Positions 10,086 through 49,129 of a DNA stretch of 64,000 nucleotides are shown here, one piece after another. This DNA comes from Heliocidaris erythrogramma (taxonomy: Eukaryota; Echinodermata; Echinoidea; Camarodonta; Echinometridae): NCBI GenBank assembly GCA_025617745.1, contig CM046857.1:25761761-25825760 (forward strand), given 5' to 3'. Within the stretch, counting starts at the first letter, position 1; each line of letters opens with the position of its first letter. The notes beneath the pieces were generated by a model, which saw nothing but the letters and a program-made list of their open reading frames with translations, did not search any database and was not told where the DNA came from. The position numbers and the translations under genes are program-made.

Positions 10086-13000
10086 GTAAGTACACTTAAC
10101 ATTTTATTTAATACTATATTAATACTGTAGAGAGGGAGGTTTATATAATTATACCAAACACAAAAACTAAGGAAACTTCAATTCGATCGATTATATTTCT
10201 TTAAAATTAGAAGAATATCTAGGTCGTATTGAATATCATTTTAAAGCTTGGATATTTCCCTATCAAACCATAACATACTTGATATGATTTGCTGAATGGG
10301 ACATGTGCCCGGGGGGGGGGGGGGGCACTATGTCACACATGTATGTGCCGATGTGACGTCCCCCATCTTCAACCTTCTCGGGCCGCTCCCATGATATGCG
10401 ATTTTTTTTTCGGCAAGAGTTTCTGCATTTATTGTCAAATCAATTAACAAATTTACAAACAATTATAGTAATAAATATACAACATAATTGTTCAAATTAC
10501 AAATGTGACATTTAAATAACAATGACAACAGAATAAAGACATGATTATAAATCGAAATGAACAAGTAGAAATGACAGAAATGCAGGGGCCAGCTATCTTA
10601 AGCAAAATGCTTGAATGAATAGCAGCCAGTGGAAAGGGCTACATGGAAACCATAATTAATATAAATGTCTATATCATAAAAGCGATGTCACTAACTGAAA
10701 AAAAATTGCTTACTACAAAAAGAAGGGGAAAAGGGGGAAGGAAAGGGATTGAAGTGAAATGTGTGCAAGTGGGTGCACGTGCAGGTGAGAAGTTTACGAA
10801 TAAGTGGATAGCAAATACTTCTTTAACGAAGCTTTAAAAGAAAAAAGAGATACGGCGTGTTTAATATCATGAGGTAAATTGTTCCAAACATCTGGACCGT
10901 GATGTCTTATCGTTTTTTGAGCTATTATTAGGTGGTCTGTCATTTATGACAGACCTCCTTTTAATTTTGTCAAAATTTTTCTTTATTATTCTTCTTTTTA
11001 AGTCAAATTGTTGTGGCCACCAAATCTCAAAATCGGCCAGGTAAATATCATCGAGTTTCATGTCATGTATGAGGGCAATCATGGACATGGTCCTTTAAGC
11101 TTTTGAAGGTCATCAGGTCATCGTGACGTCATCAAGACGCCATTTTGTAAATTTACAAGATCGATTATATCTTCATAATCGATCATCAAAAATCAATTAT
11201 ATTCACATCACATAAACCTCAATTGACGGGTCATCAAGTCATATCCTCACAGGTCATCTAGAGGTCAGGACGTGCGCGTACGCGCGCGTCAAAATTTAAA
11301 AATGCTCAAAATCACGTAGGATCAAGTCTGCACACGTTTCAGGTCATTTTGAGCATTTCAAAAATATGCGCGCGCACACGGGCGCGCGCGCATTTTCCCG
11401 TATTCTACCATGACGCAGCCTAAACTTGACGTTTTTTCTTGTGTACTCTCATAGAACATAACATTCTGAGCAATTTGATACCTTTTTTATCTTTCTACGA
11501 CCATTAATAAGGAAACTATCGTCCGTCAAAGTTTGCAGCACGCACAGGCGCGATCCCTCACTATAGGCCATATATGGGCAAAAACATGCCTATACAAAAT
11601 TCGCTGTAGCTCGTTAGATTTTTGTCATCATCAGGTAGGGTATGATTCATAAATGTCATTTCATGTATCATTTGATCCTTATAAACATTATGACATCATC
11701 AAAATGGCGCCAGAAGTCAAAATTTCAATTTTTCATGTTTTGACGTTATCACATTTATGCAAATTTGGCTCTAGATTCGTAATTATTAGTCGTTTTTCGC
11801 CCAGATTAGTCTCCACCATTTTCAATTTTTATGACGTCATCACAGTGAAATTTTCAATTAAAGATGCCATGTCAGAATTTTCCCTATTTGCGTGTTATGT
11901 CTATGGAAGATGATTTTTTTTCGAATCATGAATCTACATGACATTGTTCTCTGAGCTGTATCTCAGTTGTTTACGGTTTATTTTGAATGGAAAGGCATCG
12001 GGTATTTGATCGAAAACCCGCTCCAGCTGACTATCACTTAATGGTGGCACGTTTTGGTGTGAATAAAATATGTTAGTATCATCTGCAAATAAAACGTATG
12101 TTAGTAAAGGTGATGCATTGACAATATCATTCATATATTAAAAACAGTAAGGGCCCTAAGATTGAGCCCTGTGGTACTCCACATTTCACAGTACATATAT
12201 TAGATGATTCGGATTTGAAATTAACATATTGACGTCTATTATCTAAGTAGTCCTTAAACCAGGAAATTACTATCCCTAATCCATAAAAACCCCAACAGTG
12301 TGCTCCTTTTTATGCCTCCGCCCACCGAAGGTGGGGGCCGGAGGTATTATGTTTTCGGGTTGTCCGTCCGTCCGTCCGTCCGTCCCACTTCTCGTTACCG
12401 CGATATCTGAAGAATCATTTGAGGTAGGAAAACTTGGTACTAGTATGTATCCCCATACGAAGATGAACTGATTAGATTTTGGGGTAAGTAGGTCAAAGGT
12501 CAGAGGTCACAGAGGTCAATTTACATGAAATGATATGAAATTACTGGTTTTTAGCACCGTTACCTTGATATCTCAGAAACTGTTTGAGGTAAGAACTTCA
12601 AACTTGGTACTAGTATGGATCCCTATACGAAAATGAACTGATTTGATTTTGGGGTAAGGAGGTCAAAGGTCAGCGGTCACAGAGGTCAATTTACATGAAA
12701 TTACATGAAATTCTTGGTTTTTAGCACCGTTACCGCGATTTTTGAAGAACTGTTTGAGGTAAGAACTTCAAACTTGGTACCAGTATGTATCCCCATAGAA
12801 AGATGAACTGATTAGATTTTGGGGTAAGTAGGTCAAAGGTCAGAGGTCAATTTACATGAAATTACATGAAATTCTTGGTTTTTAGCACCGTTACCGCGAT
12901 TTCTGAAGAACTGTTTGAGGTAAGAACTTCAAACTTGGTACCAGTATGTATCCCCATAGAAAGAGGAACTGATTAGATTTTGGGGTAAGGAGGTCAAAGG

Positions 13001-16000
13001 TCAGCGGTCACAGAGGTCAATTTTATGAAATTACATGAAATTCTTGGTTTTTAGCACCGTTACCGCGATTTTTGAAGAACTGTTTGAGGTAAGAACTTCA
13101 AACTTGGTACCAGTATGTATCCCCATAGAAAGATGAACTGATTAGATTTTGGGGTAAGTAGGTCAAAGGTCAGAGGTCAATTTACATGAAATTATATGAA
13201 ATTACTGGTTTTTAGCACCGTTACCTTGATATCTGAAGAACTGTTTGAGGTAAGAACTTCAAACTTGGTACTAGTATGTATCCCTATACGAAAATGAACT
13301 GATTTGATTTTGGGGTAAGGAGGTCAAAGGTCAGCGGTCACAGAGGTCAATTTACATGAAATTACATGAAATTCTTGGTTTTTAGCACCGTTACCGCGAT
13401 TTTTGAAGAACTGTTTGAGGTGAGAACTTCAAACTTGGTACCAGTATGTATCCCCATAGAAAGATGAACTGATTAGATTTTGGGGTAAGTAGGTCAAAGG
13501 TCAGAGGTCAATTTACATGAAATTACATGAAATTCTTGGTTTTTAGCACCGTTACCGCGATTTCTGAAGAACTGTTTGAGGTAAGAACTTCAAACTTGGT
13601 ACCAGTATGTATCCCCATAGAAAGAGGAACTGATTAGATTTTGGGGTAGGTAGGTCAAAGTTCAGAGGTCACAGAGGTCAATTTACATGAAATTACATGG
13701 AATTACTGGTTTTTAGCACCGTTACCGCGATATCTCAAGAACTATCTGAGGTGAGAACTTCAAACTTGGTACCAGTATGTATCCCCATAGCAAGATGAAC
13801 TGATTAGATTTTGGGGTAAGTAGGTCAAAGGTCAGAGGTCACAGAGGTGAATTTACATGAAATTACATGAAATTCTTGGTTTTTAGCACCGTTACCGCGA
13901 TTTTCTGAAGAACTGTTTGAGGTAAGAACTTCAAACTTAGTACCAGTATGTATCCCCATAGAAAGAGGAACTGATTAGATTTTGCGGTAGGTAGGTCAAA
14001 GTTCAGAGGTCACAGAGGTCAATTTACATGAAATTACATGGAATTACTGGTTTTTAGCACCGTTACCGCGATATCTCAAGAACTATCTGAGGTGAGAACT
14101 TCAAACTTGGTACCAGTATGAATCCCCATACAAAGATGAACTGATTAGATTTTGGGGTAAGTAGGTCAAAGGTCAGAGGTCAATTTACATGAAATTACAT
14201 GAAATTACTGGTTTTTAGCCTCGTTACTGCGATATCTCAAGAACTGTTTGAGGTAAGAACTTCAAACTTGGTACTAGTATGTATCCCCATACGAAGATGA
14301 ACTGATTAGATTTTGGGATAAGGAGGTCACAGAGGTCAATTTACATGAAATTACATGAAATTCTTGGTTTTTAGCACCGTTACCGCGATTTCTGAAGAAC
14401 TGTTTGAGGTAAGAACTTCAAACTTCGTACCAGCATGTACTACCATAGGAAAATGAACTGATTAGAATTTGGGGGTAAGTAGGTCAAAGGTCACAGGTTG
14501 CAGGTCTCAGCGGCCAATTTACATGATATTAATACAGTTTTTGGCTACATTTCCACGATATCTCAAGAACAACTGATTATATTGCTTTATAGTCAGAGAT
14601 CAATTAGTATAATATAGGATTTTAGTGTTTCAAATCACAATTTCGCAATAACCATTTGATGAATGCGCATCAACTATATTATACTTGTAGGTGATCAGGA
14701 ATTATCTGAATACAAGCGGAGGCATATTGAAGACGCAGTCGTATCTTTTGCTTGTTTGAAAATGAATCGGTTATTTTCGTAAAGTAATCGTAAAGTTGTA
14801 AAATTGCGTAGTCAGTCGAATGATTTTTTCTGAAGCCATATTGGTTGGGAATTAATAGTTTATTCATATCCAAAAAAGAGTATAGACGTTTGTAAACAAT
14901 TTTTTCAAGTATTTTAGACAACGAGATTGGGCGATAATTTGCAATACGGCATGGGTCATCTTTTTTAAATACTGGAATCATTTTGGCAAGTTTTAGTGAA
15001 TCAGGAAAAATTCCCTGGGAAAGAGATAGATTGAAAATATGTGCCAGCGGGGAAGCCAGGAAATGAATAATTTGTTTTAATAGATATACACTTATTCCAT
15101 CATGGCCACTAGATTTAGAAGGACTTAGAGATCGAACAATTTCTAAAATTTCATGAACATTCGTCGGATTAAAAAATAATGAGTGCTCGGTATGATTATT
15201 TAGATATTGTGAAAAATCATTATCATTAGTATCAATCTTTGGGCCAACATTGGTAAAATATGTATTAAATGCATCAGTAATAAGACCATTGTCTAATTTA
15301 ATGTAATTTCCATTCTCTAAAAATTTAACATTTTGTACATTTTCTATTTTTTTACCTAAAATTTCATAAATGGTATGCCACAATGTTTTGTTATTGTCTT
15401 TATTGCTTTCAATTTTGTCAGAAAAATATGATTTTCTTGCTGAACGGATAATAGAAGTCAGCTTATTACGGTATTTTTTTCTATTTGTTTTGATGTGCCA
15501 AAGTAGGTGATTTAAGTGATATTTTATATAATCTATTACAAGTAAATATTGATTTTATTATTCCTTGAGTGATCCACGGTTGTTTATTCTTCTTTTTGCT
15601 GGAAGTTATTCTTGTCAGAGGCACATTTTTATCATAATAATGAAGAAGTTTGTTTATAAATATTTCATATGAATTATTAGCATTTTGTCTCATGAAGAAC
15701 ATCTTGCCAACTTTCTGTAATCAAATCTGTTTTTAGGGACTCTATGTTGCGTTTGGTTTCTTTTCGTCGAGTAATGTGTTCTTTATTTGAATGTTGATGT
15801 AAGCGTTTATTATCTGAACATATCGTGAAAATTGGTAGATGGTCTGAGATATCGTAATATATTATTCCATTACTATCTGTACTCAGTACGTTTGAGAAAA
15901 TGTTGTCAATTATTGTATGTGTTGTATTTGTAATCCTCGTAGGTTTGTCAATAAGAGGTTTGAAAGAAAATGATGATAATAAATCAGTAAAATATTGCCC

Positions 16001-19000: not shown

Positions 19001-22000
19001 TAGAAGTACGTTTCACAATGATGAAAACAAGTTGGATCTTCCAAAAAGTATATAACGGCTTTAAATATTTTATTCACTAACATAATTCGTATGAAGTTTA
19101 ATGAAATCAAATAGAAAGCATGTGTTTCAGTAAAAACCTTCATGATAGTAGTTCAAAACATATTCACAAATGTCTACTAAAAAGGACGGCACATGCAGTC
19201 CAAATCTTATGTGTTCAAACTGTAAGCACATTTGTAAGACAATGCTTAATTTGTTAAAATACTGTGGTAAATTATTGATTTTTTTTGACGTTGTGCTTTA
19301 AAAAATTCTTTCCAAGTTAAAATTATTCAGTAAAAACCGTGAATCAACTTTAAATTCATAATATCAAAATAATATTAGTAAAAATCTGTAATTAATTTGA
19401 AACTCATAATGTATTACAAATGAGTGCAGATGCAGAGTAGTGGTAATTACTGCTATTTTGTGTACGAAATATTAGCATGTGTAAAAATAATGATAATGTG
19501 TTGAATTATTTAATTACCCTTTTCAATTATTAATCTTCACTGACTTTTGTACTTTCAAAATGAATTTTTTTGTCGAATTTTAAATTATTCAATAAAACCT
19601 AGAATAATAGTTGAAGTCAAAATATTTATGTATTTAGAAATGCATGCACTTGTGTTCGAAATGTAAGCACACGAGATGAGGCTCGGTAAAAAATTAAAAG
19701 AGAGAGGGAGAGAGAGAGAGAGAGTAATACTGGGATTGAAAATTAATAATGATGAAGCATGATAAAATGAGAAGTTAGAGAAAGGATAAATGCAGTGTGC
19801 TTCATTGTGCAAAGCAATACTAATACCAAAAGGTGGGCAGTGATTTGATCAAATTGGAGAAAGGAAATTCTCTTCTTTCGTTTTTTGTACAATTTGTTAT
19901 ATATTATTCAAAAGCACCAACGAAACAAGTATTTCTAAACCTCCCATCTTATAATTGCTGTTTTTACTCGCGAATAAACAGCGCTCACCATGCGCGCGTC
20001 CAATTGTGCCATTTCGTGAACTAAATCGCGCAGCGGATTACGCGTATGATTTCGTTCACGAAATGACACGAACGTTTGAATCCTTCCAGTATTCATGTTT
20101 TATCTTCTTTTTAAAAAATTGTATGTGAACAGTTAGTTGAAATTCCCCTCCTTCGTTCCATGTACAATTTATTATATCTAATTCCGAAAACCACATCAAT
20201 TTAATGGTTTCCCAAATAATATCTCATCAATTGCGTTTTAACTCGCGAATAAACAGCGCACACCATGCGCGCATCCAATTGTGCCATTTCGTGAACTAAA
20301 TCGCGCAGCGGATTACGCGTATGATTTCGTTCACGAAATGACACGAATGTTTGAGTCCTTCCAGTATTCATGTTTTGTCTTCTTTTTTAAAAAATTGTAT
20401 GTGAACAGTTAGTTGAAATTCCCCTCCTTCGTTCCATGTACAATTTATTATATCTAATTCCGAAAACCACATCAAATTAATGGTTTCCCAAATAATATCT
20501 CATCAATTGCGTTTTAACTCGCGAATAAACAGCCCACACCATGCGCGCGTCCAATTGTGCCATTTCGTGAACTAAATCGCGCAGCGGATTACGCGTATGA
20601 TTTCGTTCACGAAATGACACGAATGTTTGAGTCCTTCCAGTATTCATGTTTTGTCTTCTTTTTTAAAGTATTGTATGTGATTAGTTAGTGGAAATTCCGC
20701 TCTTTCGTTTCATGTACAATTTATTATATCTAATTCCAGAAAACCCTCCATATTAATAGCTTTAAAGATTACAAATCTTTAATCGCGATTTTCTCAGAAC
20801 GCACTATTCGTGATCCGCGCGCACTTGTGCCACTTCGTGAAATGAGCGACGACATGCCGTTTTGCAGAGAAATTTTATTCTGTAAATAGGTTTTTAGTGA
20901 AACAGTCACAATATACAATTACGAATTAGGCCCTGCCGCACCATTTTATTTTCATTACCTGACATCAAGATTGAATTCAAACCCAATGCCGGGTTCATAA
21001 AGGGTGATTTATTTGTCCTTTGTCTCTTTGTCTCTTTAAGCTCCCATTGCGGCTGCGTTGCTTAGCCGAAATGTCCATCTACGCCTCCTGCTTGTCATTG
21101 CTACTACGATAGGAAATGGTGGAACAGTTCTCGCTTCTTTGGCCACCAGCAAGATACAGTTGTTCATTGCCTTTGCGATATCCGGTGAGCCAATTAGTAG
21201 TGTTATGGTTTATATAGAGTTCCATCATTATTTTGTAGTGACGATTGTGTTCATATGGATACGAGTCACAGGTGGCGTAGCTTGGGTCATGACAATAAGG
21301 GGGCACAGACATCATGGGGCCACCTGTCCTGCTTTATGAATGAAATGTGAATTCATAATATAAGAAAATTGATTAGGCGGACGGTGACGGAGGGATCGTT
21401 TCATCTCTTTATCAAATTTTCTTCCCCCTCTTTTTAAAATTTTCTCTATTTCCCCCCTTTTTCACCATTCGATTGCGGGACACTTGACCCCCGGCCCCTC
21501 CAGACCCAATTGTAACTATAAGCTACTGCGAGTCGGGAACTGTATATTAAGGAATTCAAATTTTCCAACATGCAGGGACCATGTCCTTCCCTGCTGTCTG
21601 AGAGAAGAAGTCTCGTTCGTATTTTGTTGTCTCTTGCGTATAAATTATTATTTAAAAAAAACACACGTAATCATCCAGCCATAATGCAAGACTTGTGTTA
21701 GAATAACAGGAAAATCTCCATTTCACATGGTGGAATAACAATTACGGTGTATTAACTTTGTTTTGAAATAGCCGAATAGATTAAAAAGACGATCAGTATC
21801 ACACTAGAGTGTGAGTCAGAAAAAGATGTTACACTTTTTAAATTGAGTATTGTTTTAAAATTTGTGGGATTAACAAATATTTTTAGCATGTATGGAGAGT
21901 TTATATTCCTTTGTTGGTTGGCAACATTTGTTTCAATGGTTCTGTTACGGTTGAGTGCACAACAACCATTGTTTGCAAGACTCAACTCATTTGCGCCAAG

Positions 22001-24725
22001 TGGTATGGTTACCTGCTGAAACAATGAACGTAAAGTTTATGCATATGTTTAATCAAGACAATAAATATGAGAACCTATAAATAAATGAATAAATAAATAA
22101 AGCCAGAAGTCATAACATTCAGTGATCTTCTCTGAAAAGTCCTTTTTCATAGTCATTTTGGGCACTTGGACATAGCTTTCAATCTTCCACATGGCGTCAG
22201 TTTCTCTCGATGCATTTCTGAGCTCGATGGAACATCGGTGGCATTGGCCTTACGAAGTGTCTGCCTGTTTGCAAGTCATCCAGGTCTGCAGGTTGGCTGC
22301 TGTACACCTTGGATTTCAGGAACCCCCAGACGAAGAAGTCCATGTGTGTTAAGTCTGGAGATCTTGGGGGTCATTCCACAGGAGCCGTTTAGCATTAGCT
22401 TCAAATTCAAATTCAAATTCATATTCAAATTCAATTCGGTTTTATTTGATCTCGACTAAAAGTCCCAAGACTAAACATGTCATACATTCAATTATTATTA
22501 TAAGAAACAACAAAAAAGCCCCTTGCCTGATTTGGAATAACTCAATTATCATTACAATAGGCCTTTTTGCTCATTGTGCAGTCTAATCCAAATCAGACAA
22601 GGCGCTGTTATTGTTGGCGCAAATGGGTTTTCACCTAGACACATTAAATGATTCGTATCTATTAAATTCATTACAGATTCCCCACAAGTGTGGTATCAAA
22701 TCTAACCATGGTGCAAGAACTAAGATATTTATATCATATTTTTAATATAAGCATTTTAAAAAGTGTAACATTTTTTTCTGACTCGCACTGCATAATTCCT
22801 GTTTAATAATACTCAAATATTTTGATTTATTGTTGTTGTTGTTGATATATTACAGGAACTGGACACAACATTGTACTTTTAACATGTGCAACTGCATTAG
22901 GAAGATATGCAGGTGAAAACTTCAACGTCCTTTACAGCCTTTCCACTTGTGGAAACTCCGTGGGAATGGTTCTACTCCCTTTTCTCGCGGAAGAGCTGCT
23001 TGATGTGTACGGATGGCGAGGTGTTCTTCTGATCCTAAGTGGTCTCCTGTCAAACGCGATACCCTGTGCCATGGCCATTCGTATAGCCCCAGAAGGTCTT
23101 ACAGGAACAGATGATAAAGAATTGCAGGGAAGTGTCCCAATGGACTATGTTTCTAATTCGGTAGTTCCAGAAGAAGTTTCGGATGCAGGATTCGACATTT
23201 TCCATGCAACTACGGACAATGTCGATAATGACAGGGTCAAAGACATTGATAGGGCACCACTCTTGACTCTTTCAAAGGAACATGGTGGAACGACGGCCGA
23301 TTCGGATCCTTCTTTTGGCCAACATATCAATGAACTTGCTCACAAGAACCGTCTTGATTACATAATGGACATCCCTGGGGATATTTCATTGTGGTTTCGA
23401 AGCACAAACTTTTATACCGACCCAATCTCTACTTTCATTTTCTTGTCCAATACTGTACTATACTTTGTATACACCGGATGGCATTCATTTCTCATTCCAC
23501 ATGCACTGCAACGAGGAATCTCACAACGCAATACAATCGTTATTGCTTTCGTAGCTGCTATTGGTAACCTATCTATTCGACTTGTCATCGCATTCTTAAC
23601 TCACAGGCTTGTTGATCCTATCAGTATGCATCTAGTTTTGACAATCTTCAATATTCTATCGTTGGCGTGTGATGCATTTACCCCCAACTTTTACGTCATG
23701 CTGGTGACGTCATGGTGTTCAGCTGCTGCTATTCCCGGAAGAGCCGTTCTAGCACCTTTAGCGATCAGAGACAGAGTTTCCGACAAAAACTTTGCAATGG
23801 CGATGAGTGTGGATACTGTCTTGGTTGATTGCGGAATTTTCCTGGGTGGATATATTTCAGGTGTGAAATGCATAATGCTAATATACTGAACAGAAATGAA
23901 ATGAGTGTAGGGCTGGGGGGGGGGGGGTCAAGGGGCTTCGCGGGATCATTTTAAAAGAGAAGGGAAGGCTGTCGACAAAAAATGTCGAGAAGAAAGAACT
24001 TCCAAACATGCCAGAATACACTTTGCTACCGATTAGAAAGCACATCCGCAGCGGTGACGTGGAAACTAACCATGCTAACGGGGACATTCCAAATGAAAAT
24101 GTATTTGTTCGTATCTACAAAGACTAAGGGAAATTTGATTCAGATTGTTTCTGGTTTTGCCAAATGATTTATTGCACATAATGTATACGTCAATTACAAA
24201 GTGTCCCCATCTTATAAAATTAAAAAGAAATATTTCTGAAAAAATTTACTTGCACTTTATAAGAGTTTAATTCTGTGATTACAATCTTTCTGCATATATA
24301 CATTTTGGATAACAGCGGTCTACGATGTGAAATATTCAAATTTTCTCTTTTAATTGTTGCATTTCTTGTCTTCGAGTTATCTCGAATCTCGAATGAGGGT
24401 GATAATCATGACAGTGATAAATACCAGCGGAAATCAGCTCGATGAAAACAATCATTAGACTTCTAATGGTATGAATTGATATTCCTTTGTTATTTATTTT
24501 TCCCTCCCCCCCCCCCCCCCCCGCCCCGCCTTTTCTCTTTTTCTTCCTTTCTGTCTCTCGTTTCCTCTTCCTATCCCGCCTTGTCTTTTCACCACAGGAC
24601 TTATTGCTGCCAGTTTTTCATCATATGACGCGACATTCAAACTTCTTGCCGCAGTCGATGTACTCACATTTATCTTTATGTTACTGCCAAAATTATTTAA
24701 GAAACCCAATTCGCCTTACTTATAG
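9779..24725 (+). CDS. Monocarboxylate transporter-like protein (SLC16 family, MFS), four coding exons
   Basis: Joining 9779-10085, 21041-21184, 22856-23860 and 24598-24725 gives an uninterrupted 527-residue protein. Every junction has GT-AG borders and phase 1. SLC16 proteins are 12-helix plasma-membrane transporters of monocarboxylates or related solutes. Visible hallmarks are a lysine in 'GLIKAMGVLF' of helix 1 (residue 68, the place of the substrate-contacting lysine in MCT1), 'PIAAALLSR' after helix 2, 'YGWRGVLLILSGL' near helix 6, a long cytoplasmic loop (about residues 220-310) between the halves, and an arginine in 'NLSIRLVIAF' matching the helix 8 arginine. The usual DG(G/S)WGW signature before helix 1 is absent. 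The substrate cannot be named. Exons 3 and 4 are duplicated downstream. Confidence 0.88.
10420..10925 (-). pseudogene. LINE element C, C-terminal tail and 3' untranslated part
   Basis: On the minus strand from about 10925 to 10790 the frame reads 'GPDVWNNLPHDIKHAVSLF' followed by 'SFKASLKKYLL', then a stop near 10793. This is the typical C-terminal tail of CR1/L2-like reverse transcriptases ('GP..WN.LP..I...S...FK..LK..L'). The sequence beyond it, down to about 10420, is probably its 3' untranslated region, judged by position only. Order and orientation match the pieces at 11985-12300 and 14740-16325, so all three are read as one LINE copy. Confidence 0.7.
10926..11985 (-). mobile_element. 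Copy of the TGACGTCA-rich repeat, inserted in LINE C
   Basis: From about 11020 to 11985 the inverse complement matches the repeat units at 44500-45470, 46090-47100 and 48250-49010. Shared blocks include 'ACGTCCTGACCTCTAGATGA', 'AAATTTACAAAATGGCG' and 'TTACGAATCTAGAGCCAAAT'. It lies between two parts of one LINE reading frame, so it probably entered after the LINE. At the tail side a palindrome 'AGGTGGTCTGTCAT' / 'ATGACAGACCTCCT' (10931-10960) may mark one terminus, because 'ATTAGGTGGTCTGTC' also occurs at 43374 and 47116. Confidence 0.65.
11985..12300 (-). pseudogene. LINE element C, reverse transcriptase core
   Basis: The minus frame reads 'VISWFKDYLDNRRQYV', 'CGVPQGSILGPLLFLIY', then after a 2-base deletion in a TA run 'MNDIVNASPLLTYVLFADDT'. 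The last holds the catalytic 'FADD' box of reverse transcriptase. Downstream the frame runs out in the repeat-derived 'KQLRYSSENNVM'. The part before 'WF' is lost at the 12311 insertion. It is inactive because of the frameshift and the two insertions. Confidence 0.85.
12311..14726. mobile_element. TIR-bounded minisatellite element inside LINE C
   Basis: The stretch begins TATGCCTCCGC (12311-12321) and ends with its exact inverse complement (14716-14726). After a short hairpin and a GTCC run (12360-12384) it consists almost entirely of a tandem array, about 12390-14560. Unit starts at 'ttagcaccgttacc' are 12551, 12721, 12882, 13051, 13212, 13382, 13543, 13713, 13883, 14054, 14215 and 14371. 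Spacing alternates 170 and 161 bp in the first part, so a dimer of about 331 bp is the repeating block. The 9 bp difference is presence or absence of 'CACAGAGGT'. It splits the LINE reverse transcriptase frame. No protein is encoded. Confidence 0.85.
14735..16325 (-). pseudogene. LINE element C, endonuclease and N-terminal half of reverse transcriptase
   Basis: The minus strand shows endonuclease motifs 'GKGGGVAFYI' (about 16270), 'LVGVIYR' followed by a stop, 'MGDFNIDLSLPY' (about 16040), 'DKPTRITNT' and 'YYDISDHLPIF' (about 15840). The reverse transcriptase half (14679-15383) follows with 'SPSKSSGHDGISVYLLKQ', 'KMIPVFKKDD', 'NYRPISLSKILEKIVYKRL' and 'NQYGFRKNHST'. The frame is then cut by the 12311-14726 insertion before the first catalytic aspartate. 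At least one stop and several frame changes lie in between. The endonuclease N-terminus is lost at 16325, where another repeat begins. Confidence 0.85.
16326..16560 (+). repeat. Dispersed repeat, inverted partner at 61131-61350
   Basis: About 200 bp match the inverse complement of 61131-61350 at roughly 90% by eye. Shared blocks include 'ACAATGCGCACAGCCCATTG' and 'CTGCATGCGACATCGAG'. This copy has a G run (16444-16459). It borders the truncated LINE C endonuclease, so it may have caused or followed that truncation. Confidence 0.8.
16589..16747. mobile_element. Short palindromic-ended element of the GGCGGATCC family
   Basis: It begins CAGGGGCGGATC and ends GATCCGCCGCTG, inverse complements with one mismatch, enclosing 'aggattttgtagaaga' and G-rich sequence. 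Related sequences occur at 38455-38760 and 42210-43320. Confidence 0.7.
17249..17408 (+). pseudogene. Short open C-terminal-like fragment inside the 3.9 kb element
   Basis: About 50 codons read 'NPNDPEPQCLYQAGPPKIS', then 'QSKYEDLLTLCSGRIPVIN' and 'HPDNQAFYRQLLH', ending in a stop near 17403. Composition is protein-like (Pro, Tyr, Cys, Leu at plausible spacing) and differs from the AT-rich surroundings. A stop codon lies directly upstream and no Met is in frame, so it is a remnant or the end of a spliced frame. I do not recognise the family. Its place near the left TIR suggests it is the tail of the element's own protein. Confidence 0.35.
17410..19960. other. AT-rich interior of the 3.9 kb element, no gene
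   Basis: Contains 'TGTATGTTG' repeats at 18090-18180 and an AG microsatellite at about 19697-19724. I see no protein-like frame longer than about 75 codons that has any recognisable motif. Confidence 0.55.
19960..20800. repeat. 276 bp sub-terminal tandem repeat
   Basis: Units start at 'actcgcgaataaaca' positions 19966, 20241 and 20517 (spacing 275 and 276), with a diverged fourth unit after about 20640. Each carries 'CATTTCGTGAACTAAATCGC' and, inverted about 35 bases on, 'GTTCACGAAATGACACGAA'. The hairpin core resembles the element's own TIR motif, so it looks like a multiplied transposase-binding region (inference). Confidence 0.85.
21041..21184 (+). CDS. Transporter coding exon 2 (helices 2-4)
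   Basis: A 144-base symmetric exon (phase 1 on both sides) between TTTAAG and GTGAGC. It encodes 'PIAAALLSRNVHLRLLLVI' and then 'GNGGTVLASLATSKIQLF', matching the SLC16 pattern after helix 2 and across helices 3 and 4. It lies outside the downstream duplication. Confidence 0.85.
22197..22376 (-). pseudogene. Mariner/Tc1-like transposase C-terminal fragment (copy 1)
   Basis: The minus frame reads 'PPRSPDLTHMDFFVWGFLKS' followed by 'KVYSSQPADLDDL'. This matches the segment around the third catalytic acid (the D of 'MDFF') of mariner-family DDD/E transposases. The expected tryptophan before 'PPRSPDL' is a TGA stop here. Only the last part of the enzyme is present, so it is dead. Confidence 0.8.
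22384..22660. repeat. ATTCAA tract and retroelement-like 3' sequence
   Basis: A run of 'TTCAAA' units (22390-22432) is followed by 'CGGTTTTATTTGATCTCGAC' and two inverted 'AAATCAGACAAGGCGC' / 'GCCCCTTGCCTGATTT' segments (about 22517 and 22590). This resembles the microsatellite tail and 3' end of a retroelement. The same block is at 27580-27856 in copy 2. Confidence 0.55.
22856..23860 (+). CDS. Transporter coding exon 3 (helices 4-11, copy 1)
   Basis: A 1005-base exon, phase 1 on both sides, between TATTACAG and GTGTGA. It covers residues 151-485: the glycine-rich helix 5 ('LYSLSTCGNSVGMVLLPF'), 'DVYGWRGVLLILSGL', the acidic cytoplasmic loop ('TGTDDKELQG' to 'HKNRLDYIMD'), then helices 7-11 ending in 'CGIFLGGYIS'. 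Being a multiple of three with equal phases it can be skipped or repeated without a frameshift. Confidence 0.9.
24598..24725 (+). CDS. Transporter coding exon 4 (helix 12 and C-terminus, copy 1)
   Basis: After a pyrimidine-rich tract and ACCACAG the exon encodes 'GLIAASFSSYDATFKLLAAV' and 'DVLTFIFMLLPKLF', the usual last SLC16 helix with its preceding 'SYD..F' motif. It ends 'KKPNSPYL' and a TAG stop. The C-terminal tail is very short. Confidence 0.88.
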
Positions 24726-24866
24726 GGAGATGAATTCTTATTTTGACTAAATGAGTTTAAACATTGTCACAAAAATATGCCTTTGAATTACTTTAGTGTT
24801 ATTCCTTTAAACATCGAACTAATTATGTGATTATTTGACATAATTATACAGGCCTATAATTATGCA

Positions 24867-24872
24867 AATAAA
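24867..24872 (+). promoter_or_regulatory. Candidate polyadenylation signal AATAAA
   Basis: The first AATAAA after the transporter stop, 142 bases downstream. The equivalent in copy 2 is at 30065-30070. Confidence 0.55.
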
Positions 24873-25149
24873 TTGATACTGTAAATGTATGTAATGAATT
24901 TATTGATTGAACTTCAATATTTTGTTCGAATATAACAGCAATAATCAGAACAATAATGGTGATAATAATAATAAGAGTAACACAGTTATGACAAAAACAG
25001 AACAATATATCGTGAGTATAGCATTGGAAGCATAAACAAAAACAAAAACAAAATACTCATAATTGCTCAACCAGACATGCTCTTTCATGAAATATAAATT
25101 ATCAGATTATGTACAAATAGTGTAAGGTGATAAGAAAAAGAGCCATTAA

Positions 25150-25752
25150 AGGCCAAGTCCACCCTAATATCAAGTTGATTTGAATAAATAGAGTAAAATC
25201 AAACAAGCGTAACAGTGAAAATTTCACTGAAATCGGATGTAAAATAAGAAAGTTACGGCATTTTGAAGTTTTGCATTATTTCATGAAACAGTGATATGCA
25301 TAACATGGGCGGTATGCAAATGAGTGAACCGATGATGTCATGCACTCACTTTTCCTTATGTATTTTATTATATGAAATATAATATATTTCATTTTTTTGC
25401 TTCAATAATGTAAAACATGGTTTGACTCCATATGGAACATGTAAAATCATCATTATTGTAACTTATTTTCATACAAGGAAGGGATTATTTATTATCACAT
25501 CTATAAAAATTGAAATATTTGAAATTTCATATAATAAAATACATAAGGAAAAGTGAGTGTGTGACATCATCGGTTCACTCATTTGCATACCGCCCATGCT
25601 ATGCATATCACTGTTTCATGAAATAATGCAAAACTTCAAAATGCCGTAACTTTCTTATTTTACATCCGATTTCAGTGAAATTTTCACTGTTACGCTTGTT
25701 TAATTTTACTCTATTTATTCAAATCAACTTGATATTAGGGTCGACTTGGCCT
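25150..25752. mobile_element. TTAA-flanked fold-back element, copy 1
   Basis: Ends are AGGCCAAGTCCACCC and its near-perfect inverse complement, flanked by TTAA on both sides (25146-25149, 25753-25756). Long inverted arms of about 215 bases enclose a unique centre. TTAA target sites fit piggyBac- or Kolobok-type elements, and the AGG start fits the latter better (inference). The centre is inverted relative to 30348-30950. Confidence 0.85.
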
Positions 25753-25830
25753 TTAAAAGAATTATATACATATATTTATACATAATATAGATATGCCTAA
25801 TAATAAACAATTTAAAGGTTACCATGTTGA

Positions 25831-26211
25831 TCAATAGTATATCGCAAAAATTTGGCAAATTCTTGTATGAGAGCGTCTTCTTTGAGTGATATTATGAATA
25901 TGAATCTCTTCAAACTGTTTGTTTTCAAAGTTATCATTGAGTGTTTTAAGATTATTAAAAAACAGTTCTTTTCTTATTCTAAATTTATCACACTGCATGA
26001 TATAATGGAATTCATCTCCTACTGTTTGCATACTACATTCTTCACAAAAACGTATATTCACTAGTATTTTGTGAGGGCGATGATATCCTGCTTTTTCAGT
26101 TGGTAGGTTATGTGAACTTATGCGAAATTTGCAGATGTTTGCAGATGTAAATGTATTTTTTTCAATCTCGTGACAGCATGCGTGCAATTTACGCAATGAA
26201 AAAGGTTTCAT
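25831..26211 (-). pseudogene. LINE reverse transcriptase C-terminal (Cys/His) tail, copy 1
   Basis: 126 codons: 'CKFRISSHNLPTEKAGYH', then 'RFCEECSMQTVGDEFHYIMQ' followed by 'CDKFRIRKELF'. The C-x2-C ... H-x4-C spacing and 'DEFH' pattern are typical of the zinc-binding-like tail of LINE reverse transcriptases. No polymerase domain is attached. Repeated identically at 31029-31409. Confidence 0.7.
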
Positions 26212-26334
26212 CGGGAGTGTGGTCTCGGTGGTCGAAAACTAATTTTATTTCTATGTGAATAGTGATGGAAGTTTGAATGTACATCTGATGCAGTAGAAGA
26301 AACAGGCTCAAACAGGACACGGAAAAGTAGTCCA

Positions 26335-26481
26335 GGGCCCTCTTGCATAAAGAGTTGCAATTAAACGCAACTCCAAAAATTTAACACAACTCGATTTTCA
26401 ACCAATCAGGATTGCGTATTTGGGACTTGCGTTTAATTTACTGAGTTGCGTTTAATCGCAACTTTTTATGCAAAAGGGCCC
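26335..26481. mobile_element. GGGCCC-ended hairpin element (copy 1)
   Basis: Begins GGGCCCTCTTGCATAAAGAG and ends with an inverse complement (TTTATGCAAAAGGGCCC). Inner arms with 'TTGCAATTAAACGCAACTC' also pair. About 147 bp, non-coding, MITE-like. Copy 2 at 31533-31679. Confidence 0.75.
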
Positions 26482-27392
26482 AGTCATGTTTTAAACTAAT
26501 AAGTCTACACAACTTACCTTATAAATAATCATAATAATAATAATAATAATAATAATGATGATAATTGATTAGGCGGACGGTGACGGAGGGATCGTTTCAT
26601 CTCTTTATCAAATTTTCTTCCCCCTCTTTTTAAAATTTTCTCTATTTCCCCCCTTTTTCACCATTCGATTGCGGGACACTTGACCCCCGGCCCCTCCAGA
26701 CCCAATTGTAACTATAAGCTACTGCGAGTCGGGAACTGTATATTAAGGAATTCAAATTTTCCAACATGCAGGGACCATGTCCTTCCCTGCTGTCTGAGAG
26801 AAGAAGTCTCGTTCGTATTTTGTTGTCTCTTGCGTATAAATTATTATTTAAAAAAAACACACGTAATCATCCAGCCATAATGCAAGACTTGTGTTAGAAT
26901 AACAGGAAAATCTCCATTTCACATGGTGGAATAACAATTACGGTGTATTAACTTTGTTTTGAAATAGCCGAATAGATTAAAAAGACGATCAGTATCACAC
27001 TAGAGTGTGAGTCAGAAAAAGATGTTACACTTTTTAAATTGAGTATTGTTTTAAAATTTGTGGGATTAACAAATATTTTTAGCATGTATGGAGAGTTTAT
27101 ATTCCTTTGTTGGTTGGCAACATTTGTTTCAATGGTTCTGTTACGGTTGAGTGCACAACAACCATTGTTTGCAAGACTCAACTCATTTGCGCCAAGTGGT
27201 ATGGTTACCTGCTGAAACAATGAACGTAAAGTTTATGCATATGTTTAATCAAGACAATAAATATGAGAACCTATAAATAAATGAATAAATAAATAAAGCC
27301 AGAAGTCATAACATTCAGTGATCTTCTCTGAAAAGTCCTTTTTCATAGTCATTTTGGGCACTTGGACATAGCTTTCAATCTTCCACATGGCG

Positions 27393-27572
27393 TCAGTTTC
27401 TCTCGATGCATTTCTGAGCTCGATGGAACATCGGTGGCATTGGCCTTACGAAGTGTCTGCCTGTTTGCAAGTCATCCAGGTCTGCAGGTTGGCTGCTGTA
27501 CACCTTGGATTTCAGGAACCCCCAGACGAAGAAGTCCATGTGTGTTAAGTCTGGAGATCTTGGGGGTCATTC
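27393..27572 (-). pseudogene. Mariner/Tc1-like transposase fragment (copy 2)
   Basis: Same sequence as 22197-22376, carried along in the tandem duplication, including the stop in place of tryptophan before 'PPRSPDL'. Confidence 0.8.
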
Positions 27573-28051
27573 CACAGGAGCCGTTTAGCATTAGCTTCAA
27601 ATTCAAATTCAAATTCATATTCAAATTCAATTCGGTTTTATTTGATCTCGACTAAAAGTCCCAAGACTAAACATGTCATACATTCAATTATTATTATAAG
27701 AAACAACAAAAAAGCCCCTTGCCTGATTTGGAATAACTCAATTATCATTACAATAGGCCTTTTTGCTCATTGTGCAGTCTAATCCAAATCAGACAAGGCG
27801 CTGTTATTGTTGGCGCAAATGGGTTTTCACCTAGACACATTAAATGATTCGTATCTATTAAATTCATTACAGATTCCCCACAAGTGTGGTATCAAATCTA
27901 ACCATGGTGCAAGAACTAAGATATTTATATCATATTTTTAATATAAGCATTTTAAAAAGTGTAACATTTTTTTCTGACTCGCACTGCATAATTCCTGTTT
28001 AATAATACTCAAATATTTTGATTTATTGTTGTTGTTGTTGATATATTACAG

Positions 28052-29923
28052 GAACTGGACACAACATTGTACTTTTAACATGTGCAACTGCATTAGGAAG
28101 ATATGCAGGTGAAAACTTCAACGTCCTTTACAGCCTTTCCACTTGTGGAAACTCCGTGGGAATGGTTCTACTCCCTTTTCTCGCGGAAGAGCTGCTTGAT
28201 GTGTACGGATGGCGAGGTGTTCTTCTGATCCTAAGTGGTCTCCTGTCAAACGCGATACCCTGTGCCATGGCCATTCGTATAGCCCCAGAAGGTCTTACAG
28301 GAACAGATGATAAAGAATTGCAGGGAAGTGTCCCAATGGACTATGTTTCTAATTCGGTAGTTCCAGAAGAAGTTTCGGATGCAGGATTCGACATTTTCCA
28401 TGCAACTACGGACAATGTCGATAATGACAGGGTCAAAGACATTGATAGGGCACCACTCTTGACTCTTTCAAAGGAACATGGTGGAACGACGGCCGATTCG
28501 GATCCTTCTTTTGGCCAACATATCAATGAACTTGCTCACAAGAACCGTCTTGATTACATAATGGACATCCCTGGGGATATTTCATTGTGGTTTCGAAGCA
28601 CAAACTTTTATACCGACCCAATCTCTACTTTCATTTTCTTGTCCAATACTGTACTATACTTTGTATACACCGGATGGCATTCATTTCTCATTCCACATGC
28701 ACTGCAACGAGGAATCTCACAACGCAATACAATCGTTATTGCTTTCGTAGCTGCTATTGGTAACCTATCTATTCGACTTGTCATCGCATTCTTAACTCAC
28801 AGGCTTGTTGATCCTATCAGTATGCATCTAGTTTTGACAATCTTCAATATTCTATCGTTGGCGTGTGATGCATTTACCCCCAACTTTTACGTCATGCTGG
28901 TGACGTCATGGTGTTCAGCTGCTGCTATTCCCGGAAGAGCCGTTCTAGCACCTTTAGCGATCAGAGACAGAGTTTCCGACAAAAACTTTGCAATGGCGAT
29001 GAGTGTGGATACTGTCTTGGTTGATTGCGGAATTTTCCTGGGTGGATATATTTCAGGTGTGAAATGCATAATGCTAATATACTGAACAGAAATGAAATGA
29101 GTGTAGGGCTGGGGGGGGGGGGGGGGTCAAGGGGCTTCGCGGGATCATTTTAAAAGAGAAGGGAAGGCTGTCGACAAAAAATGTCGAGAAGAAAGAACTT
29201 CCAAACATGCCAGAATACACTTTGCTACCGATTAGAAAGCACATCCGCAGCGGTGACGTGGAAACTAACCATGCTAACGGGGACATTCCAAATGAAAATG
29301 TATTTGTTCGTATCTACAAAGACTAAGGGAAATTTGATTCAGATTGTTTCTGGTTTTGCCAAATGATTTATTGCACATAATGTATACGTCAATTACAAAG
29401 TGTCCCCATCTTATAAAATTAAAAAGAAATATTTCTGAAAAAATTTACTTGCACTTTATAAGAGTTTAATTCTGTGATTACAATCTTTCTGCATATATAC
29501 ATTTTGGATAACAGCGGTCTACGATGTGAAATATTCAAATTTTCTCTTTTAATTGTTGCATTTCTTGTCTTCGAGTTATCTCGAATCTCGAATGAGGGTG
29601 ATAATCATGACAGTGATAAATACCAACGGAAATCAGCTCGATGAAAACAATCATTAGACTTCTAATGAGTATGAATTGATATTCCTTTGTTATTTATTTT
29701 TCCCCCCCCCCCCCCCCCCCGCCCCGCCTTTTCTCTTTTTCTTCCTTTCTGTCTCTCGTTTCCTCTTCCTATCCCGCCTTGTCTTTTCACCACAGGACTT
29801 ATTGCTGCCAGTTTTTCATCATATGACGCGACATTCAAACTTCTTGCCGCAGTCGATGTACTCACATTTATCTTTATGTTACTGCCAAAATTATTTAAGA
29901 AACCCAATTCGCCTTACTTATAG
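28052..29923 (+). CDS. Duplicated transporter exons 3 and 4 (28052-29056, 29796-29923)
   Basis: Both exons, their splice sites and the stop are preserved without visible coding change. No duplicate of exons 1 and 2 exists between copies, so this is not a complete second gene. Three fates are possible from phase alone: an alternative 3' exon pair for the same promoter, an in-frame transcript with exon 3 twice (both borders are phase 1), or an unexpressed partial duplicate. An assembly artefact is also possible. Confidence 0.75.
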
Positions 29924-30064
29924 GGAGATGAATTCTTATTTTGACTAAATGAGTTTAAACATTGTCACAAAAATATGCCTTTGAATTACTTTAGTGTTAT
30001 TCCTTTAAACATCGAACTAATTATGTGATTATTTGACATAATTATACAGGCCTATAATTATGCA

Positions 30065-30070
30065 AATAAA
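30065..30070 (+). promoter_or_regulatory. Candidate polyadenylation signal AATAAA, copy 2
   Basis: Duplicate of the signal at 24867, downstream of exon 4 copy 2, so both exon sets retain their own 3' end signal. Confidence 0.5.
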
Positions 30071-30347
30071 TTGATACTGTAAATGTATGTAATGAATTTA
30101 TTGATTGAACTTCAATATTTTGTTCGAATATAACAGCAATAATCAGAACAATAATGGTGATAATAATAATAAGAGTAACACAGTTATGACAAAAACAGAA
30201 CAATATATCGTGAGTATAGCATTGGAAGCATAAACAAAAACAAAAACAAAATACTCATAATTGCTCAACCAGACATGCTCTTTCATGAAATATAAATTAT
30301 CAGATTATGTACAAATAGTGTAAGGTGATAAGAAAAAGAGCCATTAA

Positions 30348-30950
30348 AGGCCAAGTCCACCCTAATATCAAGTTGATTTGAATAAATAGAGTAAAATCAA
30401 ACAAGCGTAACAGTGAAAATTTCACTGAAATCGGATGTAAAATAAGAAAGTTACGGCATTTTGAAGTTTTGCATTATTTCATGAAACAGTGATATGCATA
30501 GCATAGGCGGTATGCAAATGAGTGAACCGATGATGTCACACTCTCACTTTTCCTTATGTATTTTATTATATGAAATTTCAAATATTTCAATTTTTATAGA
30601 TGTGATAATAAATAATCCCTTCCTTGTATGAAAATAAGTTACAATAATGATGATTTTACATGTTCCATATGGAGTCAAACCATGTTTTACATTATTGAAG
30701 CAAAAAAATGAAATATATTATATTTCATATAATAAAATACATAAGGAAAAGTGAGTGCATGACATCATCGGTTCACTCATTTGCATACCGCCCATGTTAT
30801 GCATATCACTGTTTCATGAAATAATGCAAAACTTCAAAATGCCGTAACTTTCTTATTTTACATCCGATTTCAGTGAAATTTTCACTGTTACGCTTGTTTA
30901 ATTTTACTCTATTTATTCAAATCAACTTGATATTAGGGTCGACTTGGCCT
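30348..30950. mobile_element. TTAA-flanked fold-back element, copy 2 with inverted centre
   Basis: Same length (603 bp), same outer arms and TTAA flanks as 25150-25752. The central part reads in the opposite direction ('TTTCAATTTTTATAGATGTG' near the left here, near the right in copy 1). Confidence 0.85.
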
Positions 30951-31028
30951 TTAAAAGAATTATATACATATATTTATACATAATATAGATATGCCTAATA
31001 ATAAACAATTTAAAGGTTACCATGTTGA

Positions 31029-31409
31029 TCAATAGTATATCGCAAAAATTTGGCAAATTCTTGTATGAGAGCGTCTTCTTTGAGTGATATTATGAATATG
31101 AATCTCTTCAAACTGTTTGTTTTCAAAGTTATCATTGAGTGTTTTAAGATTATTAAAAAACAGTTCTTTTCTTATTCTAAATTTATCACACTGCATGATA
31201 TAATGGAATTCATCTCCTACTGTTTGCATACTACATTCTTCACAAAAACGTATATTCACTAGTATTTTGTGAGGGCGATGATATCCTGCTTTTTCAGTTG
31301 GTAGGTTATGTGAACTTATGCGAAATTTGCAGATGTTTGCAGATGTAAATGTATTTTTTTCAATCTCGTGACAGCATGCGTGCAATTTACGCAATGAAAA
31401 AGGTTTCAT
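31029..31409 (-). pseudogene. LINE C-terminal (Cys/His) tail, copy 2
   Basis: Identical in translation to 25831-26211 as part of the 5.2 kb duplication. Confidence 0.7.
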
Positions 31410-31532
31410 CGGGAGTGTGGTCTCGGTGGTCGAAAACTAATTTTATTTCTATGTGAATAGTGATGGAAGTTTGAATGTACATCTGATGCAGTAGAAGAAA
31501 CAGGCTCAAACAGGACACGGAAAAGTAGTCCA

Positions 31533-31679
31533 GGGCCCTCTTGCATAAAGAGTTGCAATTAAACGCAACTCCAAAAATTTAACACAACTCGATTTTCAAC
31601 CAATCAGGATTGCGTATTTGGGACTTGCGTTTAATTTACTGAGTTGCGTTTAATCGCAACTTTTTATGCAAAAGGGCCC
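31533..31679. mobile_element. GGGCCC-ended hairpin element (copy 2)
   Basis: Duplicate of 26335-26481 within the 5.2 kb repeat. Confidence 0.75.
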
Positions 31680-31764
31680 AGTCATGTTTTAAACTAATAA
31701 GTCTACACAACTTACCTTATAAATAATCATAATAATAATAATAATAATAATAATGATGATAATA

Positions 31765-34066: not shown

Positions 34067-34234
34067 GCAGTTCCCTTTTGCTGTATGTTATCACTTTTTT
34101 TGCACAGTCACGTGGTGTTATTTGACCAATCAGGATGGCTACATTCTTGAACCCTTTTTATAAAATTCTATGGTCTACCCGGTCCGTGTCAAGGGTAGAC
34201 GAAAAAGATTTTGTCAGGTGGTAAGGACTGTTAA

Positions 34235-34836
34235 AGGCCAAGTCCACCCTAACAAAAAGTTGATTTGAATAAATAGAGAAAAATCCAACAAGCATAACAC
34301 TGAAAATTTCATCAAAATAGGATGTAAAATAAGAAAGTTATGGTATTTTAAAGTTTCGCTTAATTTCGCAAAACAGTTATATGCACATCCTGCTCAGTAT
34401 GCAAATGAGGGAACCAATGACGTCACCCACTCGCTACTTCTTTTGTATTTTGTTATGTGAAATATAGAATATTTTAATTTCTGCAGATTTCACAATTAGG
34501 AAGCTCTCATTGAATTATGTATAGGTTGCAACAATCGCAATTACACATGTTCAGCGAGGAATTAAACCTTGTTTCACATTATAACAAGGAAAAATTAAAA
34601 TATTTCGTATTTCATGTAATAAAATACAAAAGAAATAGTGAGTGGGTGAGGTCACTGGTTCCCTCATTTGCATACTGAGCAGGATGTGCATATAACTGTT
34701 TTGCGAAATTAAGCGAAACTTTAAAATACCATAACTTTCTTATTTTAAATCCTATTTGATGAAATTTTCAGTGTTATGCTTGTTGGATTTTTCTCTATTT
34801 ATTCAAATCAACTTTTTGTTAGGGTGGACTTGGCCT
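34235..34836. mobile_element. TTAA-flanked fold-back element, third diverged copy
   Basis: Same ends (AGGCCAAGTCCACCC) and TTAA on both sides (34231-34234, 34837-34840), 602 bp. Arms of more than 200 bases pair, with 'TATGCAAATGAGGGAACCAA' in the left arm and its partner in the right. It is clearly more diverged from the two copies at 25150 and 30348 than they are from each other, so the family has transposed independently. Confidence 0.85.
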
Positions 34837-34974
34837 TTAAGTTTAGATCTGTCTTTATAAAAAAATATATATATGCAGACCAATTATGTAGACCCATGTG
34901 TGAGAAATGTCAGGGAAAGACAATGACAAAGATCTCTGAGAATAACCAAAGCTTTTCCTTGTTTAACTTGAAAT

Positions 34975-43320: not shown

Positions 43321-43519
43321 ATTGCTGATAATAATAATGATAATAACTAGAATTTAATTCGTCATGACGACGAATTAGGTGGTCTGTCTTTCAATTTGTA
43401 TGATCATGATCGTAATCAGGATGATCATAATAATGAGGAAATACTAAACTGAAGATAGGAAGTCAAGAATGCTATGAATGGAGATGCTTCTTGAGGACAG
43501 GAATGTAGAAAAATGTGTG

Positions 43520-43857
43520 AAACGGTCATTGTAAAATTATTGTGGTGATGATGATGAAGATGATATAATGTTGATGGTTATAATGATTATGATGATATAA
43601 TGATGATGGTGATGATATAATAATAATAGCGATGATGATCATGACAGTGATGATAATAATGATGATGATGATGATGTAATGATGATTATGATGGTGATGA
43701 TAATCATGATAATGAAGGGGATAATGATGAAGATTGATGATGTGATAATGGTGATGATTATGGTGATGGTGATTATGAAGATGATTGATGATATAATGAT
43801 GATGATGGTGATAATGATGATAATGATGGGGATAATGGTGATGACCATGACTGCAAT
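43520..43857 (+). repeat. GAT/GATAAT trinucleotide array 1
   Basis: Irregular GATGATGAT, GGTGATGAT and ATAATGAT units. It is preceded by 43360-43500, which is repeated at 47105-47255. Confidence 0.9.
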
Positions 43858-47104: not shown

Positions 47105-47603
47105 ATTTGTGATGACGAATTAGGTGGTCTGTCTTTCAATTTGTATGATCATGATCGTAATCAGGATGATCATAATAATGAGGAAATACTAAACTGAAGA
47201 TAGGAAGTCAAGAATGCCATGAATGGAGATGCTTCTTGAGGACAAGATGTGTGAAACGGTCATTGTAAAATGATTATGGTGATGATGATAATGGTGATGA
47301 TAATGAAGATGATATAATGATGATGGTTATAATGATAATGATGATATAATGATGATGGTGATGATATAATAATAATAGCGATGATGATCATGACAGTGAT
47401 GATAATGATGGTGATGATGATGTAATGATGATTATGATGGTGATGATAATCATGATAATGAAGGGGATAATGATGAAGATTGATGATGTGATAATGGTGA
47501 TGATTATAGTGATGGTGATTATGAAGATGATTGATGATATAATGATGATGATGGTGATAATGATGATAATGATGGGGATAATGGTGATGACCATGACTGC
47601 AAT
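47105..47603 (+). repeat. 43360-43857 block repeated, with GAT array 2
   Basis: 'GACGAATTAGGTGGTCTGTC' and the following 130 bases repeat 43366-43500, then a GAT/GATAAT array matches 43540-43857. The higher-order order block-GAT-unit thus occurs twice in direct orientation. Confidence 0.9.
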
Positions 47604-49015: not shown

Positions 49016-49129
49016 AGAAACAGTTTGATTTTTCTGATTATTGAACTAAAACTTGTATTGACAAACAATTGGCTTGTCATAATTTATTAGTAACTTTGTC
49101 TTGTCATATTGACAATTGGCTTGCCATAA

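Follow-up and report, generated by a model that had tools for sequence, protein, structure and literature searches.

Inversion in place of the middle of a fold-back element, very probably by exchange between its arms, recurs in the genome of the sea urchin Heliocidaris erythrogramma

Segments of DNA lying between inverted repeats are known to be inverted in place. In yeast, spacers between inverted repeats are inverted through template switching by the DNA polymerase (PMC8604942). Microinversions of 17–33 nt that distinguish human and chimpanzee are flanked by inverted repeats, and template switching or copying during break repair has been proposed to account for them (PMC8755829). For palindrome P6 of the human Y chromosome, 3 inversions were counted versus 56 conversions, with an inversion rate of 1.36–1.72 × 10^-5 per generation (PMC3723533), and in Galileo, a Foldback-like transposon of Drosophila, sequence is copied between the long terminal inverted repeats (PMC3573991). 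Here, we describe an inversion of this kind in a TTAA-ended fold-back element, a miniature inverted-repeat transposable element (MITE) with long arms, of the sea urchin Heliocidaris erythrogramma. The stretch of DNA that was analysed (referred to as the window; 64,000 nucleotides, forward strand of contig CM046857.1 of assembly GCA_025617745.1, C5:25761761-25825760 below) contains two copies of one insertion of this element, A and B, and the middle of B is inverted relative to that of A. The middle of one of the two copies was very probably inverted in place, by exchange between the arms of the element.

The case reported here resembles the yeast system, as presented in the relevant passages of the source (PMC8604942), in that the segment between the inverted arms is turned, the arms grow more alike and the process is recurrent and reversible; it differs in that at least 297 bp turn, within a transposon family, and in that the arms are about 235–240 bp long, compared with arms of 10–16 bp and spacers of 2–5 bp in the corresponding part of the yeast table. 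It shares with the human–chimpanzee microinversions, as these are described in the pertinent passages (PMC8755829), the fact that the inversions are bounded by inverted repeats, but involves a single 611-bp module, present in many copies, whose internal marks place the junctions. As in the sections on P6 (PMC3723533), arm-to-arm exchange yields both conversion and inversion and arm marks reveal the breakpoints; however, P6 is one locus with much larger arms and rare inversions, whereas the present element is a small many-copy hairpin with a high share of inverted pairs. Galileo, too, has long terminal inverted repeats, with copying of sequence from one to the other, but the inversions associated with it are chromosomal and are attributed to ectopic recombination between copies, a flip of the element's own middle not being described in the passages concerned (PMC3573991). 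The literature searched, a limited collection, yielded no earlier report that the middle of a MITE or of a fold-back element had flipped. Inversion between inverted repeats is thus known; what is new is its recurrence across a transposon family, with the exchange placed by natural marks.

One duplicated insertion with its middle in two orientations

Self-comparison of the window delineates a 5.2-kb tandem duplication, whose first unit (21355–26565, forward strand) contains a reading frame for a transporter of the major facilitator superfamily (MFS) type and element A, and whose second unit (26549–31763, forward strand) contains element B. The two units are 98.5% identical, flipped element included. 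Outside the element, they differ by a single internal substitution (24427 G/29626 A), by three indel sites, two of which lie in runs of G or C, and by edge differences beside an AAT repeat; judged by eye, the junction of the units displays a short AAT microhomology. Elements A (25146–25756, forward strand, defined by its self inverted repeat) and B (30344–30954, reverse orientation in the A/B alignment as regards its middle, but not its outer arms) occupy the same place in each unit and are equally long, 611 bp counting the TTAA at both ends, with arms of about 235–240 bp. The self inverted repeat of A reaches 88.9% over 621 columns, and the hairpin fold computed for its single strand has an energy of -274.6 kcal/mol, versus a mean of -53.9 for 20 shuffled sequences.

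Aligned directly, A and B display 81 mismatches, whereas A and reverse-complemented B display only six. Four of these six correspond to two outer arm-specific pairs, 25160/25742 and 25200/25702 (offsets 14 and 54 within the element), which have not moved; the other two, 30505 and 30542, are sites where B departs both from A and from the family majority. Conversely, all the sites at offsets 157–453 where the arms of A differ from each other are swapped in B, on both sides. Inverting A from offset 55, 100 or 157 inward leaves two mismatches to B, versus 6, 4, 4 or 8 when the inversion starts at offset 0, 15, 162 or 200, respectively, and a scan of the junctions that would produce B from A (offsets 0–239 on each side) places them at 55–157 on both sides, with two differences left. 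The inverted span is thus at least 297 bp and at most 501 bp long. The minimal inverted middle, in which each arm-differing site is swapped, extends over 25303–25599 in A (forward strand) and over 30501–30797 in B (reverse strand), sites 30505 and 30542 included. The exchange is confined to 25201–25302 in the left arm of A (102 bp, forward strand) and to its mirror in the right arm (25600–25701, reverse strand), an interval that is also the longest run over which the arms are identical; the equivalent intervals of B, delimited by the marks and the arm-identical run, are 30399–30500 (left arm, forward strand) and 30798–30899 (right arm, reverse strand). These data bear out the initial annotation, in which the middle was inverted and the outer arms were the same in both copies, the difference at 25200 stayed in place while that at 25303 was swapped, and recombination between the arms was confined to about 100 bp. 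The inversion proposed there as exact is confirmed by alignment in both orientations, except that it is not letter-perfect, owing to sites 30505 and 30542.

The flanks and outer marks that A and B have in common lead us to reject the idea that they are separate insertions. The left outer mark is a C at 25200 in A (forward strand; 30398 in B), and the 26-base stretch around it has exact matches in the whole genome only in A and B (genome-wide counts refer to a 1.06-Gb assembly of 26 contigs). The right outer mark is a C on the forward strand at 25742 in A (30940 in B), and the 29-base stretch around it is found exactly at three places genome-wide, the third one, besides A and B, being a copy on C12. 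With a few exceptions, the left and right arms of 36 other copies have identical bases at offsets 14 and 54. The centres of A and flipped B also have two states in common, 235A (found in 2 of the 36 other copies) and 341A (8 of 36), which occur together in none of these 36 copies; therefore, the middle of B is best read as the locus's own, and its import from another copy of the family is unlikely. Within the flipped tract, two sites differ in 501 bp, whereas the roughly 4,550 bp outside the element contain one substitution. This post hoc excess (p 0.03, or 0.01 with the 297-bp tract) may hint at error-prone copying, and we do not rely on it.

An older paralogue about 70 kb upstream of the A/B pair (L101, C5:25715600-25717100) carries the same insertion and hence is not an empty site. 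Its element retains the left arm to offset about 150 and about 45 bp of the right end, the middle and most of the right arm being deleted, so that one insertion exists in two orientations (A and B) and in a gutted form. L101 has the outer G mark, a T at offset 54 and, by eye, the B-like A at offset 161, a state also present in another copy (L082); this state might weakly hint that B has the older arrangement.

The same turn in other duplicated insertions

The core of the family has 866 matches genome-wide (440 + 426, with up to three mismatches), and a minority of these copies was looked at. Duplicated insertions were picked by their matching flanks, orientation not being used as a criterion, in five samples: (i) 40 places scored, 30 of them with flanks; (ii) 10 of 10, two being A and B; (iii) 100 listed of the 866, 30 with flanks, which gave eight neighbour sets by distance, five of them with common flanks; (iv) six of six, with one new neighbour set, whose flanks were common; and (v) 88, with five new neighbour sets, two of them with common flanks. 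Altogether, four of the eight two-armed duplicated insertions are turned relative to their matching flanks and four are not, counting A/B; without A/B, which was the starting case, three of seven are turned. The outer marks are kept in place in three of the four turned pairs (A/B, C18 and C10). The same turn thus recurs across the family and is not a one-off, and the term flip-flop inversion used in the initial annotation is a fair label in view of the three additional turned insertions.

The three additional turned pairs are as follows. On C18 (25.797/25.799 Mb), the copies lie in tandem units of about 1.8 kb with direct flanks; apart from the element, these units are distinguished by three substitutions and an indel at the edge. 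On C10 (26.247/26.391 Mb), they are 143 kb apart, with one mismatch in 610 flanking positions. On C2 (16.306/16.388 Mb, referred to as C2 16 Mb), they are 82 kb apart and their flanks are identical over 151/151 positions on the left and 30/30 on the right. The unturned two-armed pairs are C1 19.217/19.228 Mb (L074/L075), C2 63.583/63.616 Mb, C19 4.267/4.506 Mb, one copy of which has an arm shortened by 86 bp, and C1 66.468/66.570 Mb, with an insertion in the right arm and read only to offset 494. Four duplicated families with one arm or a truncated arm are unturned as well (0/4 turned): a trio on C12 and the pairs C2 13.920/13.939 Mb, C2 30.792/30.935 Mb and C19 32.339/32.468 Mb, the last one read only at its ends. 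A further candidate pair, formed by the neighbours at C2 63.578–63.585 Mb (L102; 0/1), was discarded, as these were found to be two separate insertions.

Marks also place the exchange in the additional pairs. At C10, the marks at offsets 36 and 52 keep their positions, as does an 11-bp deletion, and the sites from 147 inward are swapped, which confines the exchange to 72–146; inversion from 72–147 leaves one difference, versus 27 for inversion of the whole element and 86 for no inversion. At C2 16 Mb, the turned part comprises all positions from offset 50 inward, and inversion leaves 10 differences versus 90 without it; the outer limit of this inversion has no bounding mark. At C18, the outer marks 18, 19 and 36 stay and the sites from 172 inward are swapped, with exchange intervals of 37–121 on one side and 158–171 on the other. 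Hence, at A/B, C18 and C10, the breakpoints lie within the repeats and the ends are unchanged, as in inversions mediated by inverted repeats. Moreover, at A/B (102 bp) and at C10 (75 bp) no arm-identical run is longer than the one that forms the exchange interval, the right junction at C18 falls inside the longest run (85 bp) of one copy, P, and the mark-free first 50 bp are the longest such run at C2 16 Mb. The chance of such placement at all four loci, assuming a uniform position, is about 0.011, or 0.029 without C18, both values being post hoc.

The C18 pair, the copies of which are named P and Q, also provides information on the direction and outcome of the event. L058 is an independent insertion on C6 with sampled flanks unlike those of either P or Q. 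It has the marks of P in the outer arms, in the inner arms and in the centre, its only departures from P being at offsets 69, 398, 433 and 527; Q is therefore the derived copy. The right-arm marks of P at offsets 122, 156 and 157, which are also present in L058, are gone from both arms of Q. The best model with two independent junctions (left 158–172, right 37–122) leaves one mismatch, versus four for the best model with equal junctions. Since the junctions are unequal, a clean reciprocal crossover fails at C18; it is compatible with A/B and C10.

Two further observations concern the arms of duplicated copies. The unturned C1 19 Mb pair (C1:19216966 and 19227775) displays only two differences in 3,030 aligned bp, both inside the element; one of these abolishes the difference between the arms at offset 157, and this pair may thus have undergone arm exchange without a flip. 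At C2 16 Mb, one copy (L131, C2:16387772-16388432) has changes of its own clustered in one of its arms (alignment columns 164–218), and its arms are alike at 195/196, where those of its partner (L038) differ.

Explanations for the inversion

We propose the following scenario. A recent tandem duplication made A and B, the two copies of a single TTAA-ended long-arm MITE insertion. After or during this duplication, the inverted arms of one copy very probably exchanged DNA within their longest identical stretch, thereby turning the loop and the inner arms and leaving the outer arms and the insertion site unchanged. The same arm-to-arm process acts repeatedly in the family, and at least one event was non-reciprocal, with switch points that differ between the two sides and loss of the marks of one arm. 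The data show the inversion itself, the common origin of A and B, the confinement of the exchange, its recurrence and the non-reciprocal result at C18; that such events take place at the hairpin while DNA is replicated or a break is repaired is what we infer. In view of C18, we prefer either a copying process in which the template is switched twice or an exchange of strands accompanied by gene conversion to a clean reciprocal crossover, a preference that we regard as close to evenly balanced: two template switches fit C18, a crossover accompanied by conversion predicts the same product, and A/B and C10 do not discriminate between them.

Several observations weigh against inversion by arm-to-arm exchange, or against the non-reciprocal form of it. 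Half of the two-armed duplicated pairs (4/8) are not flipped, and the contrast between two-armed (4/8 turned) and one-armed families (0/4) is not significant (p 0.21). The length of the arm-identical run provides no clean threshold: the longest runs in the unflipped pairs are 30 bp, 52 bp, 74 bp (versus 42 bp in the partner copy) and 31 bp (partial read), so that one unflipped pair has a 74-bp run in one of its copies. At C18, the left junction lies outside the longest run of P, and at C2 16 Mb inversion of the whole element fits equally well for want of an outer mark, the 10 remaining differences not being explained by a flip. A/B and C10 fit equal junctions as well as any others, so that reciprocal crossover stays compatible with them. 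Finally, orientation at every locus is read from the assembly alone.

The initial annotation explained the inversion by recombination between the arms, which in its simplest form would be a clean reciprocal crossover on one chromatid (intrachromosomal homologous recombination). This process, which we consider rather doubtful, accounts with equal junctions for A/B (two leftover differences) and C10 (one), two loci at which the arms exchanged within their longest identical run; however, C18 needs unequal junctions, the right-arm marks 122, 156 and 157 of P and L058 being absent from both arms of Q. A crossover with a conversion tract would still fit. Unequal junctions are what copying, or crossover with conversion, would be expected to leave. 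The accompanying claim that the inversion argues against simple copying is not supported, since a copying process that enters the wrong arm and later returns would have the same outcome. Conversion could also be ectopic, if the arms of the two duplicates paired in the wrong orientation and the middle of one served as the template for that of the other. The product would be the one observed at A/B, where the copies are close and nearly identical, but the conversion would have to span 82 kb in the C2 pair and 143 kb in the C10 pair, and the flipped tract of A/B is no more alike than its surroundings (two sites in 501 bp versus one in about 4,550 bp), which makes this an unlikely explanation. The distances in these two pairs likewise make it unlikely that, in general, tandem duplication itself causes the flip.

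An assembly or library artefact, in which arms identical over 50 to 102 bp would have left the orientation of the middle to be set at random, is in our opinion quite improbable. The exchange mostly falls in the longest identical runs, where an assembler relying on short words would also lose phase; the assembly is scaffolded, as locus L069 contains a run of 500 N; and an artefact of amplification would be compatible with the assembly, judged from the assembly alone. On the other hand, the 64-kb window is free of N and the 5.2-kb tandem duplication was resolved despite having one internal substitution, which points to long reads, as short words could not have resolved it. Besides, the loss at C18 of marks common to P and the independent L058 is not expected from a pure orientation error. 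As to enzymatic mechanisms, excision by a transposase followed by reinsertion into the same TTAA in the opposite orientation would be in keeping with the TTAA ends and could apply to C2 16 Mb, where no outer mark is available, but it would have turned the outer marks too, and these stay in place at A/B, C18 and C10. Turning of the whole element is thus rejected at three loci, though not at C2 16 Mb, and we hold excision and reinsertion to be very improbable. The fact that one and the same module is inverted repeatedly would also be explained by a site-specific recombinase that acts at a fixed site to turn the loop. This is hardly credible, given that no point is common to the exchange intervals of A/B (55–156), C10 (72–146), C18 (37–121/158–171) and C2 16 Mb (0–49 or the edge); these intervals differ, contrary to what a fixed-site inversion system entails, unless several sites are assumed.

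The family, its surroundings and the meaning of the inversions

As judged from its sequence, the element appears to be a TTAA-ended fold-back MITE: it is short, with terminal inverted repeats and TTAA ends, and occupies many unrelated sites, since the flanks next to TTAAAGGCC (flank stubs) differ among the copies of the family. Both the Kolobok/T2 and the piggyBac superfamilies target TTAA, so that TTAA ends alone cannot choose between superfamilies. The window contains a third, more distant member with both arms present (34231–34840, forward strand), which is 76–79% identical to A and B. The two arms of this copy are more alike to each other than to the arms of A; in the comparison with A, differences are symmetrical in 32 arm columns and confined to one arm in 18, and the arms evolve together across the family. 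In the viral contigs scanned, no mirror-image partner of the element was found: a 22-mer gave no match, a 16-mer gave 24 chance-like matches, and the longest match to A was at most 18 bases.

The duplicated transporter reading frame (Pfam MFS_1) lies at 22960–23889 and 28156–29085, with relatives at C5:25.60–25.83 Mb and, at about 70%, at C5:21.72–22.25 Mb. Elsewhere, the window includes a tandem array of about 12.7 copies of a ~170-bp unit (12393–14498, for which a period of 331 was also scored), a number of long repeats, direct as well as inverted, accompanied by trinucleotide tracts (43365–51988), some of which match 11004–11984 at 83–93%, and an endonuclease–reverse-transcriptase match.

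In many cases, the similarity of the arms is the only ground for inferring that a hairpin's arms have exchanged DNA. The natural marks described here locate the points of exchange, tell inversion and conversion apart and, at one locus (C18), also distinguish the derived from the ancestral copy. The presence of hundreds of copies in one genome would allow the dependence on arm identity to be measured directly. A word of caution follows for genome comparisons: the orientation of such an element is unsafe as a character with which to pair or date duplicated copies.

Three flips over a summed divergence of 0.0043 (A/B, C18, C10 and C1 19 Mb) correspond to about 700 flips per unit divergence, an order of magnitude only, as it relies on five substitutions, includes the starting pair A/B and ignores repeated flips. 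We tentatively suggest, at less than even confidence, that these elements are natural flip-flop hairpins and that, with long identical arms, their orientation may be near random between duplicates differing by about 0.02–0.25 percent. If this is true, individuals should be heterozygous or mosaic for the orientation of the middle.

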